NCBI GenBank assembly: GCA_025201365.1
Contig: JAIXMF010000234.1
Coordinates: 1 to 21,751 of the forward strand
Direction of reading: 5' to 3'
From: Syncephalis plumigaleata
Taxonomy: Eukaryota; Zoopagomycota; Zoopagomycetes; Zoopagales; Piptocephalidaceae
Length of the DNA: 21,751 bases
Shown here: piece by piece, positions 4,494-21,612 of the stretch
Layout of the letters: each line of letters starts with the position of its first letter
Numbering within the stretch: the stretch's first letter is position 1
Made by a program: the position numbers and the translations under genes
The notes under the pieces: model-generated
Told to the model about the DNA's origin: nothing
The model's database searches: none
Seen by the model: only the letters and a program-made list of their open reading frames with translations

Positions 4494-7400
4494 TTAGTCA
4501 AAACTCATATCTGTACCACTACTTTCACTATCAATGTGATGATAATCATCTTGTTGATCTACTCCTTCAACATGATCATCATTGTCTCCATTATTACTAG
4601 TATGTTGTTGATGTGATGACATGAAAGCATTTAAACTAGCAGTAAGTGGTCTCTGTTCAGTACCCTCTATACTCAATGTATCTGATGGTAGATCATCTAG
4701 TGAGAATGACACTTCATCATAGGAAGCTATCTTTGCTAATCCACCATCTACCTGTTCTTGTATTGCCATATTCAATAACTCAGTAGTTAATGGATTGTTT
4801 GATGATAACCCTAATGCCTATAACATACAGCAATATTAGTCATGATCATCATTGTAGCATAGTGACTAATAGCTACTTACTTGATGATAGTATTCAATGG
4901 CCTTCTCAATGTCACCCATTGCATGATGAACGTAGCCTAGACCGGTGTAAGCATCTGCTCGTCGTGGACATCGTGTTTTCAGTTTAATGAAACACTTTTT
5001 AGCCTCCTCGTAATTGCTAATTTATTTATTTGTTTATTTCATAGTTATTATTCACCTAGCATGATGACTTACCCTAATCTACGATGAGCTTGACCTAGAT
5101 TGGACCATATGTCATTCTCAACAGATGCATCATACTCCATTTCTTTAATCATGTCAAGTGCCATGTTGAAATGCTCGATAGATTTCTCGTATCTATTTCC
5201 ATTGAATGTAAATCGATGCATCAATAGATAGAATTGTGTGTGTCACTTACTCTTTCTGTTCGTAATAAAGTACTGCAAGTTCATTGTTGAGTAGTGCATC
5301 ACTAGGACCTAATTCGGCAGCACCCAACAAGTATTCCTGAGCTACACTTAGATTTTTCTGTTTTAGTAATTGCATGCCAATGAATAAAGTAGGGAAATGT
5401 GATCTATATATATATATATATTCACATAAATGAAGGCAATATAGCATTAGTATTCGCATTATAGAATGGCATCATTCACTTACCCGGGAAATAGTCGATC
5501 TGCACTGGAATACTCTTGAATTGCTTGATCATACTCTCCTTCTTCAGCAAATGTATGAGCATAGCCAATACGTGCAGGACCATAGTTGGTGTCCATTTGT
5601 GAGGATTTCCTACATCATCATCATCATCATTATTCATTGGTGTATTAGTCTATCAATTACAATAGGTGCATGTCATTGTATTCCCTACTTGAAGTAACGA
5701 CGTGCTTCTGTTGTTTTCTTAACAGAAAAGTAGTAGCAACCCACACAGAACCAAGTGACCGGTAATTCAGGGAATCGATCCACCAATTCCTTACCCAAAT
5801 GGAAAAGGCGATGTTGATCACGTAACTCGTAGAGACATGCAATATGTGTGGTTAGAACTGTAGGATGATACTGCTCCACTTTGAGTAGTCTATATCAATT
5901 ACATTGCATCAGTATACAAGCTAGCTTCTATACCAATAAATAACTTACCCTTTAGTAATGGTTAGACAGTCTTTGAAACGACCACGTGCAAATGCACTAT
6001 CAGCTATACTAAGCTCAACATCAACATTGTTTACTAGTCCATATTCCTCTTCAAGTGTACGCTTAAGCGGTAGCAATTCCTTATTATTAGATGGCTGTAG
6101 TATACCATGTATAGAATGATAGTATTAGTAACCAATCAACTAACACATTATGATTAGATTTCATGTACTTACCATGCGTTGCTTAATGGTATAAATACTA
6201 CGAACGAACTTGGCATCTTCCTCTCTCAACTGAGTGAAATCCAATGAGGATAGAAACTCTTGTTCTAGATATACAATGTTAATAGACTGTATTACTATCC
6301 CATATTCCTCATTAAACTCACCTTCTGTCTGTTTCATCATTTGATTAATCACTAATGCTTGATATGCCTAATAGTATTGTCATTAGCCATCATCATGATC
6401 TATATTATTCATTATACAATTGATATAATTACCTCATAACATTTGATATCAGTCTTCAATGCTTCTTTAAAACATTCTTTGGCTCGTTTTACATTCTCTT
6501 GTTCCAAGTAGACTTGTCCTCTTAGATAACACATGGATGCTTCTAACTGATAATGATAAATAAGTAAATATACACACACATTGTATTTGTCATTATTTAC
6601 CTTGATACCTTCCGGTGCATTCTTTACTTGACTAACTTGTCCATTGCCTATAATAATAGTTGGTTATTGTGTCACATCTTATTTCTACATTATTAGATTA
6701 CCATTCATTCTAGTAAATGGATTGGTCTCTCCTAGTATTTCTAGAGCTGCTTGCCATTTCTTTAATTTCGTCTATACTCATGTTTATAATTAAGCATGTT
6801 ATTATCGCAATGTCTATTCATCTTACCATGCATTGAGCAGCTAGGAAACGACAGGCTACACTCGAGTTAAGCAAGTGCTTTCTCGTTAATAATTTCTCCA
6901 CTCGAACGTATTGTCCGGTCAAGTAGTAGACCTGAGCTAGCCAGAATATATCATTGGGATCATTGGTCATTGACACCACTTTGTCACCCCAGAATATTGC
7001 ACTATCATATAGATGTTGTTGCATCGCATCATGTCGCCAACATCGAATACGCTCAACTAGATCCGAGTCTGATACTTGCGTGTCTTGAACATCAGTCAGA
7101 TTAGCCTCTGGTATATTCATCGTTTCATTCGCGTTCACATCAAATAGATTCGATCGTCGATGATTAAGCTTCTTTGCTACGGTGGATCGATTGATCGTAT
7201 GTCCCGATGAATTAGAAGAGGGTGCTGATAGAGTGGAAGCACGAGCTGGTGACAATATATGTCCACCGATATTGTGATGTGACGGTGAACCTTGCAGATA
7301 TAATTGTTGCGTGTCATGTGCCGGTGAATGTGGAAAGGATCTCGGTGTTAGTGCGGTTTGCGAGAATCCTTGAATATTTGGTTGTGCTTCTGCGATTGCC

Positions 7401-8119
7401 GATGACATGTTTCTTTGAATGTTCGATTGACGATGTCGTTGATCCGAGCCATGTGATGCTGATTCTACTGAAGATGGATTGGCACTACCTGATAATGAAG
7501 CGGAAGCAGAAGAAGCGGAAGAAGAAGCTTGCGATGCAACAATAGCAGATGGTGTATGATAGTTATTTGTATTGTCTGCAGTTAATAAATTATCGGATGA
7601 TCGAGATAGTTGAGGTGTATGACGTTGTTGCTGCTGTTGCTGATGCTGCTCGCGCTGTTCTCGTTGTTGTACACGTCTACGTGTTCGCGTTCCAATAGGT
7701 GGTGATATTGCTTGTGTGTTCACCGGTGTGACTATCGTACGATTCCGATTTGTATGTTGTGCTGCTGTAGCATTAGGTGTAGTTGATGTGTTATTTATTG
7801 AGTTTACACGACGAATAGATGCTGCTGGTGTTGGTGTAGTTGCTGTAGCTGTCTGCGCTGTTCTACCAATGTCTGTATGCGTAGTATTTGATTCTACACG
7901 TCTTCTAGTTACATGGATTGTAGTACTACGGCTTGTAACCGTGCGACTCACTCTGTTAGAACGCGTTGATATGGTGGGCGTTTCAATCACTCTATCTCTT
8001 ATTCGTGGTTGACGTCGCGTTGATGCTGTTGAGCTACCTTGTATGCTATCACGCTGCTCGCTATTTCTAGATGCTGCTGCTGCCGCCGCTGTTCTTCGAG
8101 TGCGTGGTGCTGCCGGCAT
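4494..8119 (-). CDS. CDC16: Anaphase-promoting complex subunit 6 (Cdc16/Cut9), TPR protein
   Basis: TPR scaffold subunit of the APC/C ubiquitin ligase, which drives mitotic exit. Exons (high to low): 8119-6827, 6771-6702, 6647-6601, 6546-6433, 6367-6322, 6264-6173, 6094-5949, 5889-5689, 5609-5484, 5403-5251, 5192-5073, 5016-4881, 4817-4494. All are GT-AG and in frame, giving 955 aa with a TAA stop. From about residue 350 the protein follows Cdc16 closely: SAIFWGDKVVSMTND, DIFWLAQVYYLTGQY, a hydrophobic TPR array, VTWFCVGCYYFSVKK, YGPARIGYAHTFAEEGEYDQ and AYTGLGYVHHAMGD. The end is acidic and disordered. The first ~350 residues are low complexity (Arg/Thr/Ser/Ala/Gln-rich, with a Gln run) and hold several S/T-P sites, including SPAR and LTPRS. 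This makes it longer than animal Cdc16 (about 620 aa). The start ATG at 8119 opens the long first-exon frame. The donor at 5688 (GTAGGG) is weak but preserves the frame. Confidence 0.94.
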
Positions 8120-8464
8120 TGTGTGCGATGACTACACGATGCGGTGTTTATATCAAGAAAATACCAGTTGTAGAAAAGAAGAGAGAGAGAGAGGGGGAAA
8201 CAGATTGTGCAAATAACCAGGCGATGACTAACCAGTATTCACCTATACCATCTAATAATAAATTGCGCACTGACTTGCTAAAGAATGAATACAATCGTCG
8301 TTACCACTACAATGACTCACTGTAAATAGACGATTGAACAGATTAGTGTGCGTACGTACACTCGTTCGTTCGTTCGTTCGTGTGCTAGTAAGTAAGCGGG
8401 AAGGACAAATAACGAGTGACGAATGATTTGTGTAGATATCACACAGACAAAATCAAAACAAATC

Positions 8465-8478
8465 AAATCACGTGATTT
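8465..8478. promoter_or_regulatory. Palindromic E-box (TCACGTGA core)
   Basis: AAATCACGTGATTT is a perfect 14-bp palindrome around CACGTG. The inner 10 bp (ATCACGTGAT) are identical to the box at 760-769 upstream of the adaptin gene. CACGTG flanked by T and A is the classical site for Cbf1-like bHLH proteins in fungi. Binding is inferred. Confidence 0.5.
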
Positions 8479-8665
8479 AACATAACCAGTATCTCATTTA
8501 ATCGTGGACATTGATCAAAAGAAATCGACATGTAGATGCTCCTATAATACTATGATATTGTCTATATCTATAACAACAACTAATACTATAATGCATATAC
8601 ACTATGATAACAGCTCATCTAGATAGTATATTGTTACGTATTTTAAGTAGCTTGTAAAGAACAAT

Positions 8666-8709
8666 AATCGAAATGTATAATCAAGTGTGACTGCTTACAC
8701 ATTTCGATT
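8666..8709. repeat. 11-bp perfect inverted repeat
   Basis: AATCGAAATGT (8666-8676) is the exact reverse complement of ACATTTCGATT (8699-8709), with 22 nt between. It lies immediately before the CCAAT/ACGCGT cluster. It could be a paired factor site or a cruciform or stem-loop. It is not followed by a T run, so a terminator is unlikely. Confidence 0.6.
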
Positions 8710-8753
8710 TTAAGACACGCCCCTACTCTAGTAGAGCCAATCATTGGTGAGTT

Positions 8754-9053
8754 ACGCGTTTCGACGCAGTCTAGTAAAAACAAACGTTTAGGGCAACACT
8801 AGATTGAACGCGTCTACACTCGTATGTTTATTAAAGCCTTGATTCCACATATAGTCTCATTTAAATCCCCATTGAATGATCACACCTACTACAGTGTGTA
8901 TGTGATATCAGCTGGATATTCTATTGTTTGTTTACTATTACGCGTTTTATTTCTACTACTGCTACTACTACTACTGCTTCTTCTTTTCTTCTTCTTCCTC
9001 GTATTGATATCATTCATATACTACTGTGAACAAAAGTAGTAATTAATACGCGT
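8754..9053. promoter_or_regulatory. Cluster of four ACGCGT (MCB) boxes
   Basis: Perfect ACGCGT hexamers lie at 8754-8759, 8808-8813, 8940-8945 and 9048-9053, 153 to 452 bp before the ATG at 9206. ACGCGT is the MluI cell-cycle box, bound by MBF (Mbp1/Swi6-type complexes) at G1/S genes in yeasts. A fifth copy lies inside the downstream gene's intron (9915-9920). The density far exceeds the rest of the window. The neighbouring genes are a cell-cycle ubiquitin-ligase subunit and a candidate G1/S repressor, which fits the motif's known role. Confidence 0.65.
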
Positions 9054-9205
9054 CTTACTGATTTATTTATCTCTTGTCCACTACACCTATAAGCCGTATG
9101 GTATATCCATTTGTATTTAGTACTTGTTTATCATCTACGCTATACACTCTCATAGTAGGCTGAATTGGATTAGTTATTATTGAGTGAGTGTTGTTTATTT
9201 ACATC

Positions 9206-10785
9206 ATGCCATTGACATCATTAGTTGTATCGGATAAGCATGACTTGTCGGTACTTTTGAATCGTTCCTCCTCTTCCTCTTCTTCTTCACCTTTGATGGC
9301 AACATCGAGACATGATCATTATGATAAACAAATGATGATGTATCGCTCCTATTCACTTGATACTGCACACTTGTTTAAGAATTCACCGGCAGCGGCGTTT
9401 ATTAAGAAATACGCGCCAAAGCGTGGTACTACAACTGATGATGATGATGATGATGGCACTCACATGATTGGTCGGAAAAAAACGCGAAAGTCGATTTGTT
9501 ACTCGATGAATAATCGTATCCTAGTTGACTCGACCGTGTCTAATACACCCATGAACTACAACAAATCATCAACCACACCACGTACTACTAGTACAACACC
9601 ATTACAAGTAAGAACGACAAATCTACCACATCATCATGAGAAGGCCACATCATCACCACTCCGTGCATCATTGCATGCATCTAATACCAGTTGCTATAAT
9701 GATGTTGTATGTCGGAATACAATCGATCAGAATCCTACAGACAACAACAACAACAACAATAGTGATGCTGATGATGATGTTAGTTGTCCATCTACACCTG
9801 ACAATGTTTACTCGAATAAACATCAATCGTCTAGTGGAGATATTGCCGAGTTCAAACGCTCGCCTCAACTTAAGAATGATTTACAACGACATTTACGTAT
9901 TGAAAAAGTAAGTTACGCGTTTATTACTGACTATCTTCTATACCACGACTAACATCAATCTCGTATGCCATCTAGTGTATTAGACAGTTACGCTCTCGTT
10001 TAGGGTTGGCAATACACAAATCATCCACAGGACAGTGCTCCAAATCATTCGATGAACTTGTAGCCGAGCAAATCATCCATCATTCTCCTACCTGCACACA
10101 AGGGGTGACACGAGACGCGACAAGCTGCACAGCCCAAGTAGTCGAGGATGCATTTGGGCGGTGTGTGCTGCAACCATGCCGTGCACTAGTTTCAACATCG
10201 TCATACATCACTCATACAGATGCATGCTATTCTACTCAATATAGCAATGCAGATGTACCATTATCATCATGTAGAAGCACAACAACCACAACAGATGAAG
10301 AGGAGGAAGACGAAGAGGAAGACGAGGTTGGCATCATGACCATGCCATGGACGACTCCATCACATTTACTGCAAGCACATCGTCATCATCATCATCATCA
10401 CGTTCGTCATCGTAAAAGACGCGCTTTAAACCATGTCACACCATTGATTCATCGACAGCCATCACGTTCTGCTTGTTACAAGAGTGCCACAGTAGCTGCC
10501 TACTTTGCTACTCCTTGTGTGGCACTACCACCACCTGGATCACCCTATGAATCCATGTTGAAACGACGAACAAAGAAGAAGACAAAAGAGGCATCACTAA
10601 TGATGACAAAGGATAAACCATCCACTAGTAATAGTGATAATAATAGTCAATCTCGTTCTACATCATCTGTATCCAATATGAAACATCATAACAACAACAA
10701 CACTATTGTAACATCCAACATGTCACCATTGGATTGTACGGCAGCAGCAGAAGCAATGCTCTTACTACATCAACAGGACAACTAA
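9206..10785 (+). CDS. Whi5/Nrm1-like (GTB-motif) putative G1/S transcription repressor, copy 1
   Basis: Exons 9206-9907 and 9976-10785 (68-nt intron, GTAAGT donor, CTAAC branch, CTAG acceptor, phase 0) give 503 aa ending at TAA. The ATG at 9206 is the first in frame; an upstream GTG is not needed. Exon 2 opens CIRQLRSRLGLAIHKSSTGQ and continues SFDELVAEQ (about residues 235-265). This resembles the GTB motif of the Whi5/Nrm1 family, which binds SBF/MBF to repress G1/S transcription in the nucleus. The rest is disordered: Ser, Asp, Asn and His runs, and more than ten S/T-P sites (SPLR fits the full CDK consensus), as expected for a CDK-inactivated repressor. The C-terminus has AAAEAMLLL, a short hydrophobic patch also hinted at in the second copy. 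The family call rests on motif reading only; the gene model itself is firm. Confidence 0.6.
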
Positions 10786-11380
10786 GATACATACCATTAT
10801 GAATGTGTGTGTATCGTATAGTATCCTTTTTTTACATTGACATCATCTATCTATTCACTTTTCACCTTTTCTTTTTAAGCTGTATTATTCTTTGATATAC
10901 TCGACAGTGCTACACTTCGTATTATAATAATCATTTACCTGTTTTTTCTACTTATTTTTTACATACCATCAATAAACCATTTGATACTTGCATTTCTTGC
11001 TCTATTAATAATTATTGTGTGTAAAAAGAGTGTAGTAGTAGTAGTCATCTACCAATAAATGATAGTTATCTCTTTCTACACTGCTACTCATTTGGACATT
11101 CACTACTATTGAGGTATACCACAGGGTCGATACAGCAATGACACTATTTATCATCATACCGTTCTATGTTTCCCTTTTTTCTCTAACCATTTATGATGAC
11201 ATCAATTTCAACTATCTCTTACAAGGCTAATAGATGAATATTAGTTCATTCACGAACATACACACATATATCCACATACACATAAATACACACACAAATA
11301 TACATATACATATACATTATTGTCGCATCATTCATGTGATCATGACCGGATAGGGTAAACAGGTTTGTAAAGACACGCGT
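10786..11380 (+). other. 3' flank of copy 1
   Basis: No gene is supported. A candidate poly(A) signal AATAAA lies at 10971-10976, with a further AATAAA near 11055. T-rich stretches and a CACA/TATA-rich run (11262-11316) follow. One ACGCGT box is at 11375-11380. Confidence 0.45.
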
Positions 11381-12228
11381 GTTCATCTGCACAAAGAATG
11401 TGGGGTAATCCCATAGCATATTCACAATGTTCAAGGGAGGAAAGAGAGAGACAGAGAGTAAGTTAAACAACAACAACGCGACCACATCGCGACAGACATG
11501 TGACGTGGGACGAATAAACAGTACGCGACAGATAATTCAAGAGAATGACGATTGCATGGTTGTCATTTGCTGTTCAACTATTTTTATACACTCTTTGCTG
11601 ATTCTACTTGATCAATACAAAGTGACAATGTCAATCAAAGGTACTACAATACAATACAATAACAATAGCAATAGTAGAGTAGATGTACAAGATTACCCTT
11701 GATCCATCTACGGTAATGGTAGTGTGCCATTCAAGTGGAGACTGAATAACAGACAATGATGTATGGCACGCGTCTCGTGACCGCGATACAGAATGTGTGA
11801 AACCATGGTTGGCGGAGCAGATAAGAGAAAAATACTCCATACCGCGTTGTATCCACTTGGTTAGTATTCACGCTTGCTGTACAAGGCAATGGACTAAAGA
11901 GAACAGCAGTATCATTCTCTATCCTTCGTGTAGAATGTATACGAGTGGCTAGTGTGTGGCCTTTGAAATAGACTTTGACAGTGGTAAGTCGATCATGCTT
12001 ACGCATACTGCTGCTACTATGGTTGATTGTTTATTTGTAGGACATCTATGCACACAAACACGCGTGTGTATATCAACCTTTGTAGTTCGTAGTATTTAAC
12101 GTAGAACATTTACGCATATAGGAATGATGATATGAGTCATTCTAGTGGATAAATGGTATCGATAACAGAAATTGACGTCATTGTTACCATTAATAACCAC
12201 ATCGTTTTACTATTTTGATGCGACGCGT
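11375..12228. promoter_or_regulatory. Dispersed ACGCGT (MCB) boxes upstream of copy 2
   Basis: Perfect ACGCGT copies occur at 11375-11380, 11768-11773, 12060-12065 and 12223-12228, about 1.1-1.9 kb before the ATG of the second Whi5/Nrm1-like gene. They are less tightly spaced and farther away than the cluster before copy 1, so a regulatory role is less certain. Confidence 0.35.
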
Positions 12229-12440
12229 TTGATTTTTTTCGTCATTTATTCATCTACTACTACTACTACTACTACTACTAGATCCTTGTTAACACAGTTC
12301 TACACGAACTTGTCTGTATCTCGATCAATAAGAGTTGTAGTCGTATAAACAAGTAATAGATGGAACACTATTGTCACATAATAAAACTCCGATGGTCATC
12401 TGAGAGGAAAAAGTGTTTCCACTTCTTCTATTTGGTTCTA
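11381..12440. other. Unassigned region with exon-like open stretches
   Basis: No gene is recognised. Several short stretches look more protein-like than the surroundings. On +, 11683-11742 and 11746-11949 are open in the same frame, separated by a single TGA; the second translates as DVWHASRDRDTECVKPWLAE and onward. On -, 12006-11731 is also open. A strong donor-like GTAAGT sits at 11459. I could not assemble a convincing spliced gene on either strand. ACGCGT boxes lie at 11768-11773, 12060-12065 and 12223-12228, and nine CTA repeats at 12254-12280. Confidence 0.3.
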
Positions 12441-12499
12441 CACTTTCATCCACGCATTGCATTCCTTCATCATGAGTGAATGGATGTGACATGATGAAC

Positions 12500-13311
12500 A
12501 AGCCGTAAATGCGCGGGCGCGTGTCAACTGACTCATGCTCGTTCGCTTGCTCGCTCGTTTTCGGTCATACTTGCGCCTTCCTCCCCTTTTTTCCCTTCCA
12601 ATCCATCCTACACATACATACACACTCATGCTCACATTCACGCTGTTTATTTGACTGGCGTCGTCTTCATCGTCGTCCCTTCTCTTCCCATTCTTGTTCG
12701 AGCTCACATGTTCACCCCGCTTCGGTTCATCTACTTAATCGCTTTAATATCACTCGCGATTGCTTCCTTTGCATTCGTTATCCATTCCTCGCCTTCTCTT
12801 TCTTCTATCTTACTCTCTCACTCTCTCCCTTCTACCTACTCGCTCACTCGCTCATTCTTCATTGCTTATTACTCGACTTGTCTATCACACTCACGTACTC
12901 ATTCACCTTTGTTTCTCCTCGTCGTCGTTGATAGTTGTCTGTTTACTCGTTTGCATTTGCTTCTTCTTCCTCTCTTCTACACTACCTACCCTTTACTCAT
13001 TACACTTGTTCACTCTCCTTCCTTACACCGTGTTTTTTCTCGCTTCCTATTGTCAGTCACATTGACTTTGCGTTACATTTCCCTTTATCCTATTGAACGC
13101 TTAGTAGCACGTCTCTCTCTCTCTCTCTTCCTCTTTCTCGTACCTTCTCGTGCTTTCTCCTCCTACTTGACCCTGTTCCTACACCTGAACCACATTCACG
13201 CTTCTTCTCCTTTCCCCTTCCTCTCTCTCTCTCTCTCTTTTGCTTTACTATTGCCGTGTATATTACGCGCTTGTGTGCATTATCCTCTCCACTTTCCATC
13301 ACTTTTCACCC
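12500..13311 (+). promoter_or_regulatory. Pyrimidine-rich leader/promoter of copy 2
   Basis: About 0.8 kb of the + strand is dominated by C and T (TCTC, TTCC and CACTC patterns), with CT microsatellites at 13112-13129 and 13219-13238. Because TAA/TAG/TGA need purines, up to three + frames stay open at once here (e.g. 12509-12931, 12651-13334, 12760-13065). They read as Leu/Ser/His-rich nonsense, so I treat them as composition artefacts. Pyrimidine tracts just before a start codon are typical of fungal promoters and 5' leaders. Confidence 0.5.
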
Positions 13312-15485
13312 ATGGACCTCGGTCGTCTACTTAATCCACCCACTTTGGTGGAGCCAGTCACTAGTGACTCTTCTTCTATTGCCACCCAACGATTTGCACA
13401 AACAGCCAAGAGTGCACAGGTGAGTAAGCGGCACATGTTCCCTCTTTACATGTAGTACGGTGATATGAATATGCTTGTGTTTGTTAAATGATTTATTAAT
13501 GAGCAGCGTTGATGAAGAGTCATCCTTGATTCTTGGCACTTTTCTCCTGATCCATATACCATTATTCTAAATGTATATCTATTATTGTTATATTCATGAT
13601 GGATATAATACGAGATAAATGCTCGCTTTTTTCTCTTGTATATTATTAATTGCTTTTGCTGATAATTTACCCTGCCAATAAGCATGTTATGACATTGAGA
13701 GGGAATGACCTGGCTATTATTGCCTTTCCCCTCACTTGTGTCAGCCTTGACATTATCTGAAAGCTTACCACTTGAATAATCGATGGCGTGTTGTGTGCAT
13801 CATTTAGTAGAGCAGCTTGTACATTCAGGCTTCTACTTCTTCGTAGGGTGAACAATTGCCTATTGGAGTGTACATGTTCAAACCAAGCGATGTTATGTGT
13901 GGTCTGCTGACCATTCCATATAACATGGCTTGAAACACCGATGCCCCATTAACAATACAAGCCATGTAGTGTGTGGCGTGGCAGTTCCATTGGATGGCAT
14001 CTATGAAACAACGTGCTATTGATGATATATGACGATATAATCGATATTTGTTATGTAGTATAATGCGAGATATGGAATGGATTGTTGTGTCTATATGGAT
14101 ATGCACGGACATATGCAGTGTACATAAAACGACAAAAACAACCTCTGTTTCTTTCTCGCGTGCGTGCACGATTCAGGGTGCAATCTATTTGTGAGGCCTA
14201 GATTGTCATTGTTATTGTCATTGTCGTTGACTTTTCCTCATTTTCTCGGTCTTTCTTCCATTTGTGAATGACATGCAGGTTACTGCTACTGCTGCTAGAC
14301 GCGTCTCATTGGTGCTATTCGCGTTTCTCCTCCACACACATACACAAACATACATACATACATACATACATACATGTATCATAGTCGTGTGAGAATTGAT
14401 GATAACACAAACGAGAATAATGTTGCTGGGCCCTTGTGCGACACACGCGCTACTACGATGACAATCCTGTAATTTTACTCGTCTGGTTCAACCGCACTAA
14501 CTAACCACATTCTTTGTGATGATCTATTCTATTCTATTCTACTGTATAGTATCTACGCCGTTTACGTGCTCGACTTGGTCTCGCTTCCCTTCGTGTTACG
14601 TGTCAGAAAGACGACGCTCTAGCTGCGCTGGAACGTGCACTTCAATTGGATCTTTCGGATCGTACAAGAACACCAATCGCTAAGGATGCTACTGCCAATC
14701 GCAGAGGAAGAAGCCATACAATGCCAAGTAGTTTGTCTATGCGCGGCATATCGTTGAAAAGTACTCATGATTTGGTGGACTACTCACCACAACGAGCTTC
14801 CTCTTCCACACCCTCTACATCTACTGTATCGTCAACCAATAACGACACAACATCAACATCAACTATTACCAGTGATGCAGAAGCTGGTGCAGAACTTTTG
14901 CTTTTCGTCAAGTATGCACATACACAACCGCTTCAATCGCTGGATGAAGCACTCAATGTATCCAATATCAATTCGCGTATCAATAATCGTGTAACTAGTC
15001 ATGTATTATCTTCTCCTGTTCATGTATCTTCTAAAGTAAGCATGCCATTACCATCCTCAACATCTTGTCATTCTTTATCAAATCAACATCCACATCCACA
15101 TCCACCATCACGTCGACATACCATGGCCAAACGGGTAGCTGCGCATCCTTATCGTGCCATTGCTCCTTTACCTGCATTATCAAGTCTCGTTCCTAATGTG
15201 ACAAAGCAGCCTACTACTACTGCTGCTGCTACTTCTTCATCTTCACCACCTCTCAACGCTCAATCAATGATGATGATGATGCCACCGCCACCGCCACCAC
15301 CCATGCCACGACAGCGAACATCGACTGAACTGCCCCTTCAGTCTCCCTGGCCTACACCCGATTCATCGCCCAACTTCTCTGCATTATCTTGTTCAGCCTC
15401 CAATCTACGTGAAATGCCATCAGATATGCCCAGTTTCACTAAACTTCCTCAGTCACTTTTACCCGCTGGTCAATACATGGCCTAG
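13312..15485 (+). CDS. Whi5/Nrm1-like (GTB-motif) putative G1/S transcription repressor, copy 2
   Basis: Exons 13312-13419 and 14550-15485 give 347 aa ending at TAG. The ATG has a good context (CCCATGG). The 1,130-nt intron (GTGAGT donor, CTAAC branch about 50 nt before the TATAG acceptor, phase 0) is far longer than others here. The model is supported because exon 2 opens YLRRLRARLGLASLRV, aligning residue for residue with exon 2 of the 9206 gene at the same intron boundary. The GTB-like motif (about residues 37-70, with LAALERAL after it) suggests SBF/MBF binding in the nucleus. AGAELLLFV may match a short conserved patch of the family. The rest is Ser/Thr/Pro/Met-rich and disordered, with a proline run and S/T-P sites (SPQR fits the full CDK consensus; also WPTPDSSPNFS). 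Exon 1 (MDLGRLLNPPTLVEP onward) is the least certain part. Confidence 0.55.
13420..14549 (+). other. Long intron of copy 2
   Basis: At 1,130 nt it is roughly twenty times the usual intron length in this window. It contains an ACGCGT box (14299-14304) and a CATA microsatellite (about 14349-14374). It also has - strand open stretches (14169-13825 and 13855-13667) with a donor-like GTAAGC near 13770. I do not recognise any product in those stretches. Confidence 0.45.
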
Positions 15486-18181: not shown

Positions 18182-19776
18182 ATGGAAAGTACAGCGTCTA
18201 ACTCATCAAATCAAAGCGATTCTTTTTTCATCGGCAACACTTCCTCATCTGCACCTCGGCCTGGACCCATTGGCATGCAAACCTACGAGCTTATCAATTT
18301 GTGTGTAGGCGCGCTTCTGTTCACCATCTCGTTGGCGGGTCTAGCCATCGCGCTAGCAAACGCTCGTTTCCCCCGATTAAAGCCAAAAGCCCGCATTTGG
18401 TGGCGCTGGCGCTACTGGCCAATATTGCCTTTTGGATCGGGAAACTACACGCGCATGGATTTCTCGGCTACGAGGGCATATTGCAGAATTGTACTCTCTG
18501 GGGAATATGGCTACAATGCGTACTAGGTGTATGCTTAATGAACGCGGTACTCAGCCTACGCTACCAGCGACTATACACCGTGTTGATTCTACGCCAGTCA
18601 GCGTGGAATCTACGCACCTACCTTCCTAGTATCATTTACGCATTTGTCGTGTTGGTCTGCGCCATTCTGTCCAGTGCCATGCCCCAGAAGATGGGTTTCT
18701 ACTGGGACGATGAGAGTAACAATTGTTTCTCGACCATCGCTTCGATGTACCTCTTTCTACCGTGCGTCATTATCGGTGTCACCACACTGGCCGTACTTAC
18801 CTGGCGTTTACGACGTGTACGCGACGCGTTTAACGAATACCGCGAAACACGCTACGGCGTGATTCTCCTCTTGGTGGCATTCGCCATTAACACCATACTC
18901 ATGGCCACTGGATACGGACGCTATCGCTGGGCCAAGCACATTCTCGTGGTGATCTCGTTCCTGTGGGGCAACCTCTACTTCTGGATGGTGATGGGCAAGC
19001 CAATCTACGGCTATCTATTCGATCGAAACCGGTGCCAGGAACGATTCGTGGCGGGTCTAGAGATTGACACATGTCAGTACATGGAATATACACGTAACAA
19101 GAGCGACAGTAAAACTAAAATGGTATCACAGTCACGCTACTTTGATCTCGATATACGCAAGAACTCGCAAGCACACTCGGTTAATCCACGGTCCATGCAT
19201 AGCCAGCAGCATCGAGTGACGAGGAAAACGACCAACTACGGCTGGGACAGTCCCACGGATCGATCGGATCACTGTGTGGAGGAAGACGAGGAGGGGACAG
19301 CAACAGGTCGATATGTACCACCGCTGCCATTGTCCGCGTACCCGATGCACACCATACCCGCGAAACATCAGAATAATTCAGGTGAGGATGCCGAGCATGT
19401 TCCCGTAGGCGAACCACCTTTACCGCAACAACAATCACTATCGGCAAATGGTGATGATAATGGTGGTGATGCTGCTGCTGCCATTACCATCTTGCCATCG
19501 CCACCGGCTCCGTCTCACTGGTCTTCCTCGATTACGCGTACCGCTCATAATAGTACAACGAGTCTTGCCTCGCCATCTTCCTCGACGAATCACTACCATG
19601 AAATAGGAGAAACGTACAATAACAATACTGCTAATGGTAATGCGCGGCAATCTCCTTTGTTCCCTAGTCATCACGAACACTGGGATGCTGTCCCTATAGT
19701 CAGTAGACAAAGCGAGTTCTCTGACACTCTGAAGAAGAATGCTATAGGCGAGAACACGCATAGTGTTATTCTATGA
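18182..19776 (+). CDS. Putative seven-transmembrane receptor (GPCR-like), frame-disrupted at a C run
   Basis: Likely a plasma-membrane receptor with an extracellular N-terminus: three N-glycosylation sequons (NSS, NQS, NTS) lie in the first 21 residues. No introns are needed, but the frame changes at 18370-18374 (five Cs). The first frame gives MESTASN... through ANARFP; the second, from PIKAKSPHL on, continues to the TGA at 19774. Read across that point the protein is 531 aa. Seven hydrophobic segments lie at about 37-61, 71-90, 105-127, 148-166, 185-208, 225-245 and 250-279. Cys104 (before TM3) and Cys182 (before TM5) could form the usual extracellular disulfide. A conserved-looking end of TM7 reads FLWGNLYFWMVMGKPIYGYL. 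A ~250-residue disordered cytoplasmic tail follows, with no RGS domain that I can see. It recalls fungal 7TM proteins of the RGS-linked type, but that assignment and any ligand are uncertain. Unless repaired or frameshifted, translation ends at about 18526 (114 aa). Confidence 0.75.
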
Positions 19777-20366: not shown

Positions 20367-21612
20367 TTATAGCGTATATTGATTGATCAAATTCAGTTCA
20401 TCCGTATCATTTGTATCATCTGTTTCAGCTGTTGATGTAGCAGCAGCAGCAGCAGCAGCAGTAGCAGTAGCAGTAGCAGTAGCAGCAATGATATTATGCA
20501 ATGTTAACATGTTGTTCAATCGTACATAGTTTGTTATCATGGAAATGGTATCAAGCGGTGCATCCATCATTACAGATTCATTCATGTTCTCATTTGTAGG
20601 CAATATGCTTGGTTGTTCATATGCATTGTTTGACATAGTATAGGTTTGGCACTGGAGGTTTGCAGGATTATCATATAAAACTGTCGTATTTAATAGGTTA
20701 TTATTATTATTGTTCGTAGGCTGGATTAAATTCGTGAATTTAAGCATCCTATGGAGCGTTCAGGTAATGCTTGGCTAGATGCTTGCTCATACATCGACCA
20801 TTCTTGCAATCCTAGTCCTACAAGACTTTGTGGATTATAGTCATACGTTTGATACTGTGGTAATGATGTGGTCATTCTCATCGTATTTGGGGCAGATGGC
20901 ATGGTTATGGCATTGGCATACTGCGGTGAATTCATACAATGCTTATTTTCGCCTAATATTTTTGGTATATTACGGCGACGAGCATTGGTGAACCAGTCAT
21001 TCAGCTGTGTTGCCGTCATGCCTGTTTTCACGCGTAGCATTACTTTTTCATCAGGATTCGGGTAAGGATTATCCAAATGCTGCATCAACCAGCTTCTTAG
21101 TATACGTATAACGTGTGGACTATGATATCTACGATGCGATTTCTGTATACGGCATGATGATTTGGCCAAGTACGATGGGCCTATATGCTCATTGCCGCGT
21201 TTCATCAATTGATCTTTGCAAGGCTTCTTATGACCATTACGCGATTGACTCATGAAATGGGAATCGCTTCTCTTTTTAACACCGGCGAATGTGTTCAGAT
21301 GATGCAGTGCGATACTTGGATTGTTTTCACAATCATCAGTATTATCCATCGTATCATCCTCCATCACTAAATCCTGGAATAGTGTAGATGATGGTACAGC
21401 AGTGCATACTATAATGCATATCAAATATGATTATGATAGTAATGAGATAATACATTATACTTACTGTTGCTGTCATTTTTATGGTTGTTGGACACTTGTC
21501 CAAGCATTGTTGAAGGTGTAGCTTGATGATCCGAATCATTCGGTTTATTCGTCGTCTTCTGTTCTGACCATAGGCCTAGTAGATCATTTAGTATACCATT
21601 CGGATTATCCAT
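20367..21612 (-). CDS. TALE-class homeodomain transcription factor
   Basis: Exons 21612-21465, 21408-20793 and 20748-20367 give 381 aa ending at TAA. The ATG at 21612 has a strong context (AACAAAATGG), although the frame stays open upstream without an ATG. The homeodomain is at about residues 138-198: [18 protein letters not shown] shows the three-residue TALE loop (P-Y-P) between helices 1 and 2, and [13 protein letters not shown] is the recognition helix with its invariant W, F, N and R. It should bind DNA as a nuclear regulator; fungal relatives act in mating-type, morphology or development control, but which role applies cannot be told. The C-terminus is Asn-rich, with an Ala/Thr run encoded by GCA/GTA triplets (20440-20488). 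Intron 1 is 56 nt. Intron 2 (20792-20749) is only 44 nt; without splicing the protein would end at 20726 with a different tail. Confidence 0.88.
20440..20488 (-). repeat. GCA/GTA triplet repeat coding an Ala/Thr tract
   Basis: On + this is a run of GCA units, then alternating GTA/GCA. On the coding strand it gives [18 protein letters not shown]. Such repeats vary in length among strains. Confidence 0.8.

Follow-up and report, generated by a model that had tools for sequence, protein, structure and literature searches.

Four perfect ACGCGT boxes lie within 300 bp of Syncephalis plumigaleata DNA upstream of a gene, here named GTB1, which suggests a switch that may turn on its own brake. GTB1 is probably a target of MBF that codes for a GTB co-repressor, and would form an Nrm1 loop as in yeasts. 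This reading, and the view that S. plumigaleata probably uses MCB-type elements, is based on features that can be read from the genome: the box cluster and its rarity, a GTB-like motif together with the position of the intron before it, a gene for an Mbp1-like factor with its wing, and the CGCG core at replication genes. We infer that the Mbp1-like factor would bind the four MCB (MluI cell-cycle box) sites at 8754-9053, that the boxes would drive G1/S-timed transcription of GTB1, and that the GTB1 co-repressor would bind the MBF-like complex and shut it off. We lean modestly toward this explanation in its entirety, that is, an MCB cluster read by an Mbp1-like factor, a G1/S-expressed GTB1, and a co-repressor closing the loop.

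The window, meaning the whole stretch of 21,751 nucleotides analysed, is C151:1-21751 in an assembly of 32.6 Mb and 383 contigs. The four boxes, which have no strand, occupy 8754..8759, 8808..8813, 8940..8945, and 9048..9053, starting 452, 398, 266, and 158 bp 5' of the GTB1 ATG, respectively. A fifth ACGCGT is at 9915-9920, inside the GTB1 intron. The original prediction had listed these five sites and all are exact matches. It had also expected one copy per 4,096 bp or fewer, which proved too low: the genome contains 10,904 ACGCGT in 32,639,069 bases, or 1 per 2,993 bp, and 5,164 copies of the reversed word TGCGCA. Against that measured rate four copies in 300 bp remains exceptional.

With a word this common, about 1 per 3 kb, the cluster could be a product of chance, as one or two like it are expected. 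A Poisson model at the genome rate gives ~1.6 starts of clusters with at least four ACGCGT per 300 bp in 32.6 Mb. Pairs spaced 4-34 bp number 129 genome-wide versus ~113 hand-calculated from the genome rate, and therefore the model is not badly off at short range. Eleven further 10-kb loci (110 kb, gene-chosen and thus non-random) hold 39 copies versus 38.6 by maximum-order Markov expectation, and the entire window is box-rich, with 16 copies where the genome rate would give 7.3 and dinucleotide shuffles (n=100) give a mean of 4.07 and at most 12. Set against chance is the placement of the cluster, 158-452 bp 5' of the ATG in a candidate G1/S gene and, at its nearest box, ~635 bp from the presumed start of the neighboring gene CDC27. 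The word is also sparser outside long ORFs, with 15 copies in 58,373 bp of the 110-kb sample. We therefore regard chance as an unlikely origin of the cluster. The densest 300 bp holds two copies among the first 100 ACGCGT sites of contig C1, which span 380 kb, and three in the 11 loci, at a locus selected for its triple; no second cluster of four per 300 bp was present in the ~490 kb of other sequence sampled. Close ACGCGT triples were considered for marking G1/S genes across the genome and dropped, since they occur at two places of identical sequence, on C329 and C359, which is about chance. Most simply, these two are alleles of one locus.

The locus itself has a counterpart, C223:207419-210113, which aligns to window positions 8100-10800 at 97% and is most simply its other allele. 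Alleles seem to be retained as separate contigs in this assembly (pairs C151/C223, C374/C223, C68/C191, and C329/C359), so that some loci are counted twice in genome-wide figures. In C223, 14 of the 16 ACGCGT in the window are unchanged, including all five of the GTB1 region. This also speaks against chance, albeit weakly, because ~3% divergence would often spare boxes by chance. The box-bearing promoter block (8638..9187, unstranded) differs between the contigs by 2 substitutions in 550 bp, versus 13 in 518 bp for the CDC27-proximal half of the intergenic region (Fisher p 0.003; block versus rest of window, p 0.027). Conservation of the block between alleles is suggestive only, because its bounds were drawn after the alignment had been seen and because 12001-13500 lacks any substitution. 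That 1.5-kb invariant stretch, 5' of the downstream gene GTB2, stands beside 500-bp bins in the left half of the window that mostly differ by ~1-3%; recent exchange or strong constraint are possible causes. A DNA match on C318 (77% over 82 bp) was examined as a relative of the promoter and rejected, since it reads as a trinucleotide-like repeat within coding sequence.

The boxes share their intergenic region, 8120-9205, with a divergent neighbor, CDC27/APC3 (4494..8119, - strand; extent read from ORFs, ANAPC3 Pfam match on 6818-8131), and might thus serve CDC27, or CDC27 and GTB1 together. We consider this quite improbable. Four of four boxes are closer to GTB1, each is more than 500 bp from the presumed start of CDC27, and the 500 bp upstream of that ATG contain no CGCG.

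Replication promoters offer a view of what the genome does with such sites. The replication set consisted of six MCM genes and RNR1. Starts were read from translations, with that of MCM2 approximate; the identities of MCM2-7, RNR1, and StuA, the CDC27 extent, and exon starts were likewise read from translations, as Pfam gave families only. Controls were 15 small-GTPase genes drawn from 89 Ras-family matches, with a profile start of at most 10 and one gene per judged allelic pair. Within 500 bp upstream, CGCG occurs four times in RNR1, three in MCM7, twice in MCM2, once in MCM5, five times in MCM3, and twice each in MCM6 and MCM4, whereas the control counts are 0, 0, 0, 1, 0, 0, 0, 1, 0, 0, 0, 0, 2, 0, and 1. 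All seven replication genes thus have the core (19 sites) versus 4 of 15 controls (5 sites), an 8-fold increase (one-sided p 0.00014), at a GC content of 36.6% versus 37.5%. Six of the 15 control upstreams are without an anchored ATG; with the nine ATG-anchored controls only, the excess stays at p 0.0016. Spans of 200, 300, 400, and 530 bp give p 0.0003, 0.0006, 0.0002, and 0.0002. The 500-bp span was picked after a 1-kb scan that showed no excess over mixed background: 14 CGCG in 6 kb for six replication upstreams with first-guess starts, about the 2.17/kb found in sampled sequence that combined coding and non-coding parts. Over the full 1 kb upstream, the mean for the seven replication genes is 3.0 CGCG, the controls having been counted over spans of up to 530 bp. 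The CGCG positions were already known when starts were assigned to MCM3 and MCM5.

As a point against the MCB reading, CpG in general is also higher in replication upstreams (20.9 versus 12.9, 1.6-fold, p 0.007); CGCG is raised more, 8-fold, and CCGG, TCGA, and ACGT show no significant enrichment over the control upstreams. GCGC, an E2F-like word, was rejected as the driver: it is raised at p 0.004, but at p 0.58 once sites touching CGCG are removed, whereas CGCG sites not touching GCGC stay raised (p 0.0014). The full ACGCGT was likewise rejected as the replication-promoter element, being present in two of seven replication versus one of 15 control upstreams (p 0.096); the CGCG core was taken as the element instead. 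The GTB1 promoter, with four CGCG in 500 bp, all palindromic, ranks with the strongest replication promoters. The corresponding count is one each for GTB2, for a Whi5-like gene on contig C46, and for Mbp1, and zero for StuA and CDC27.

Two KilA-N genes were found in the genome. One (L003/L028) combines KilA-N with ankyrin repeats, the only such ankyrin-bearing gene found, and its KilA-N domain aligns to the Mbp1-type structures 4ux5, 1mb1, 1l3g, and 1bm8 with E values from 8.6e-32 (4ux5) to 1.2e-29 (1bm8). Its wing, VQGGYGKYQG, fits the motif QXGXGXXQ, whose two glutamines are described as recognizing the CGCG core in PCG2 (PMC4333399). By its sequence the genome has an Mbp1-type factor with a predicted CGCG-reading wing; the second KilA-N gene looks like a StuA/APSES type. 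The proposal that ACGCGT is an MBF site here thus gains from the factor and from CGCG at the replication genes, but the palindrome itself, at two of seven, is not the general element. No gene with an E2F_TDP domain was found in the genome, a weak negative, as control genomes matched no better. E2F-like TTCGCGC contexts do occur 5' of MCM2 (L031) and MCM6 (L034), although no E2F gene was found.

GTB1 is read as a two-exon gene on the + strand. Exon 1 (9206..9907) is an ORF with an ATG at 9206 and a donor at 9908, the intron (9908..9975, GTAAGT..CTAG) has inferred splice sites, and exon 2 (9976..10788) has an ORF listed as coding to 10785, a position that either takes in the stop codon or falls one codon short of it. 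The predicted product has 503 residues. Between alleles both exons together have 16 synonymous and 15 non-synonymous changes, a dN/dS of ~0.27, and no stops, and the gaps in exon 1 are 12, 12, and 9 bases; these differences behave as coding. The GTB-like motif (QLRSRLGLAIHKSS..DEL, 9985-10059, + strand) lies in exon 2, where the Whi5 family PF08528 matches with 14.1 bits for the exon, 17.8 in a six-frame genome search, and 19.3 for a short peptide. All are below the gathering cut-off of 25 bits, and the genome-search E value is 0.16. GTB1 and its allele are nonetheless the second-best Whi5 place in that search, in which five candidates scored and the C46 gene came first. S/T-P pairs number 14 versus 6.5 in shuffles (p 0.002), one of them a full CDK site, and the protein holds long asparagine, histidine, and acidic runs. 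The product is S/T-P-rich and probably disordered, and the motif would presumably form a short helix within it.

These properties make GTB1 a plausible GTB (Whi5/Nrm1-type) protein. The original prediction of a GTB repressor stands in part, favored by the rank in the genome search and by the intron position, and held back by a score below the Pfam cut-off. The same low score leaves room for a reading in which the boxes are functional MCB sites and GTB1 is a G1/S gene, but its GTB-like helix is a chance resemblance, with no co-repressor and no loop. No other Pfam family reaches its cut-off either (the best is Nha1_C, 16.1 bits against 23.7), NCBIfam has no match for exon 1 or exon 2, and every match of exon 2 in the PDB has an E value of 0.17 or worse. 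A resemblance due to chance alone sits poorly with the second rank in the six-frame search and with an intron placed as in the clear Whi5-like gene, and we regard that reading as rather doubtful. A co-repressor that closes the loop is the interpretation we prefer.

The clear Whi5-family member of the genome is at C46:650515 and scores 30.6 bits, above the PF08528 cut-off. In both this gene and GTB1 the Pfam motif begins with residue 4 of the exon that follows a phase-0 intron. These two and GTB2 have an LRxRLxLA segment soon after a phase-0 intron, by inferred splice sites. Similarity between GTB1 and the C46 gene is confined to the motif, LRxRLxLA. We take the matching placement of intron and motif as moderate evidence that these genes may have a common origin. 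Against the preferred reading, the C46 gene has only one box within 500 bp upstream and two within 600 bp, and its S/T-P pairs are not enriched (2 versus 2.0 in shuffles).

GTB2, tentatively a downstream tandem relative of GTB1, has exon 1 at 13312..13419 (+ strand, donor at 13420) and exon 2 at 14550..15485 (+ strand), which begins YLRRLRARLGLA and has the phase-0 intron position of GTB1. Its alleles differ by three synonymous changes and one non-synonymous change, and its S/T-P pairs are not enriched (8 versus 10 in shuffles). GTB2 was rejected as an equal GTB member; it has no Whi5 Pfam match and weak TPR matches instead. Looser boxes occur elsewhere in the window, at 11375, 11768, 12060, and 12223. 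Four ACGCGT sit 1.1-1.9 kb 5' of GTB2, and one is within its 1.1-kb intron. A broader scheme, which we consider fairly unlikely, is that this fungus, outside the yeasts studied so far, has kept the Nrm1 loop with a small GTB family: the clear Whi5-like gene plus a tandem pair, GTB1 and GTB2, derived from a single gene by way of a shared intron, with GTB1 as the member driven by four MCB boxes and all of them acting on a single Mbp1-type factor. Under that scheme MBF-driven self-repression would predate the radiation of model yeasts.

In budding yeast, Nrm1 is an MBF co-repressor and itself an MBF target. The fission yeast nrm1 gene is described as MBF-regulated, with a product that acts as an MBF co-repressor, and the loop is established there (PMC2726434). 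GTB1 resembles Nrm1 of S. pombe and S. cerevisiae in its GTB-like motif, its upstream MBF-type boxes, and the loop logic proposed for it. Unlike Nrm1, its motif is under the Pfam cut-off, its product has the homopolymeric and acidic runs noted above, and its loop is a predicted one. Fission yeast Whi5 is reported to repress MBF in quiescent cells (PMC12828573). With the SBF repressors Whi5 and Whi7 GTB1 shares a motif of family PF08528, at a sub-cut-off score; unlike them, it is not the clear Whi5-like gene of its genome, and either GTB1 or the C46 gene might play the Whi5 part and the other that of Nrm1. The factor resembles the winged-helix proteins Mbp1 and PCG2 in its KilA-N alignments and QXGXGXXQ wing, whereas the set differs, with one ankyrin-bearing KilA-N gene found and the other of StuA/APSES appearance. 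SBF and Whi5 are described in early-diverging fungi (Medina et al. 2016, PMC4862756). The present genome resembles the SBF-Whi5 network of that account in pairing an SBF/MBF factor with the Whi5 family in a fungus, and differs in the weak negative for E2F_TDP. ACGCGT-driven Nrm1-type genes did not appear among the matches listed for early-diverging fungi in open-licence papers.

Since the loop is already known in yeasts, GTB1 is likely a new case of it. If this is true, the negative feedback closing the wave of G1/S transcription would be wired alike in a fungus away from the model yeasts. A reading of the genome alone, by box cluster and GTB motif, could then find a brake gene. The GTB1 promoter and protein would give a concrete handle on the age of the MBF-Nrm1 loop.

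Other features of the genome and window are recorded here. The presence of Whi5-family and Mbp1-type genes fits a fungal genome; the flagellar marker PF04712, used as an indicator of lineage, had no match, which is not decisive. At 18202-19776 a long ORF reads as a seven-helix receptor-like protein, with no Pfam match above cut-off. A TALE-type homeobox gene lies at 20726-21430 on the - strand, identified by a Homeobox_KN Pfam match.
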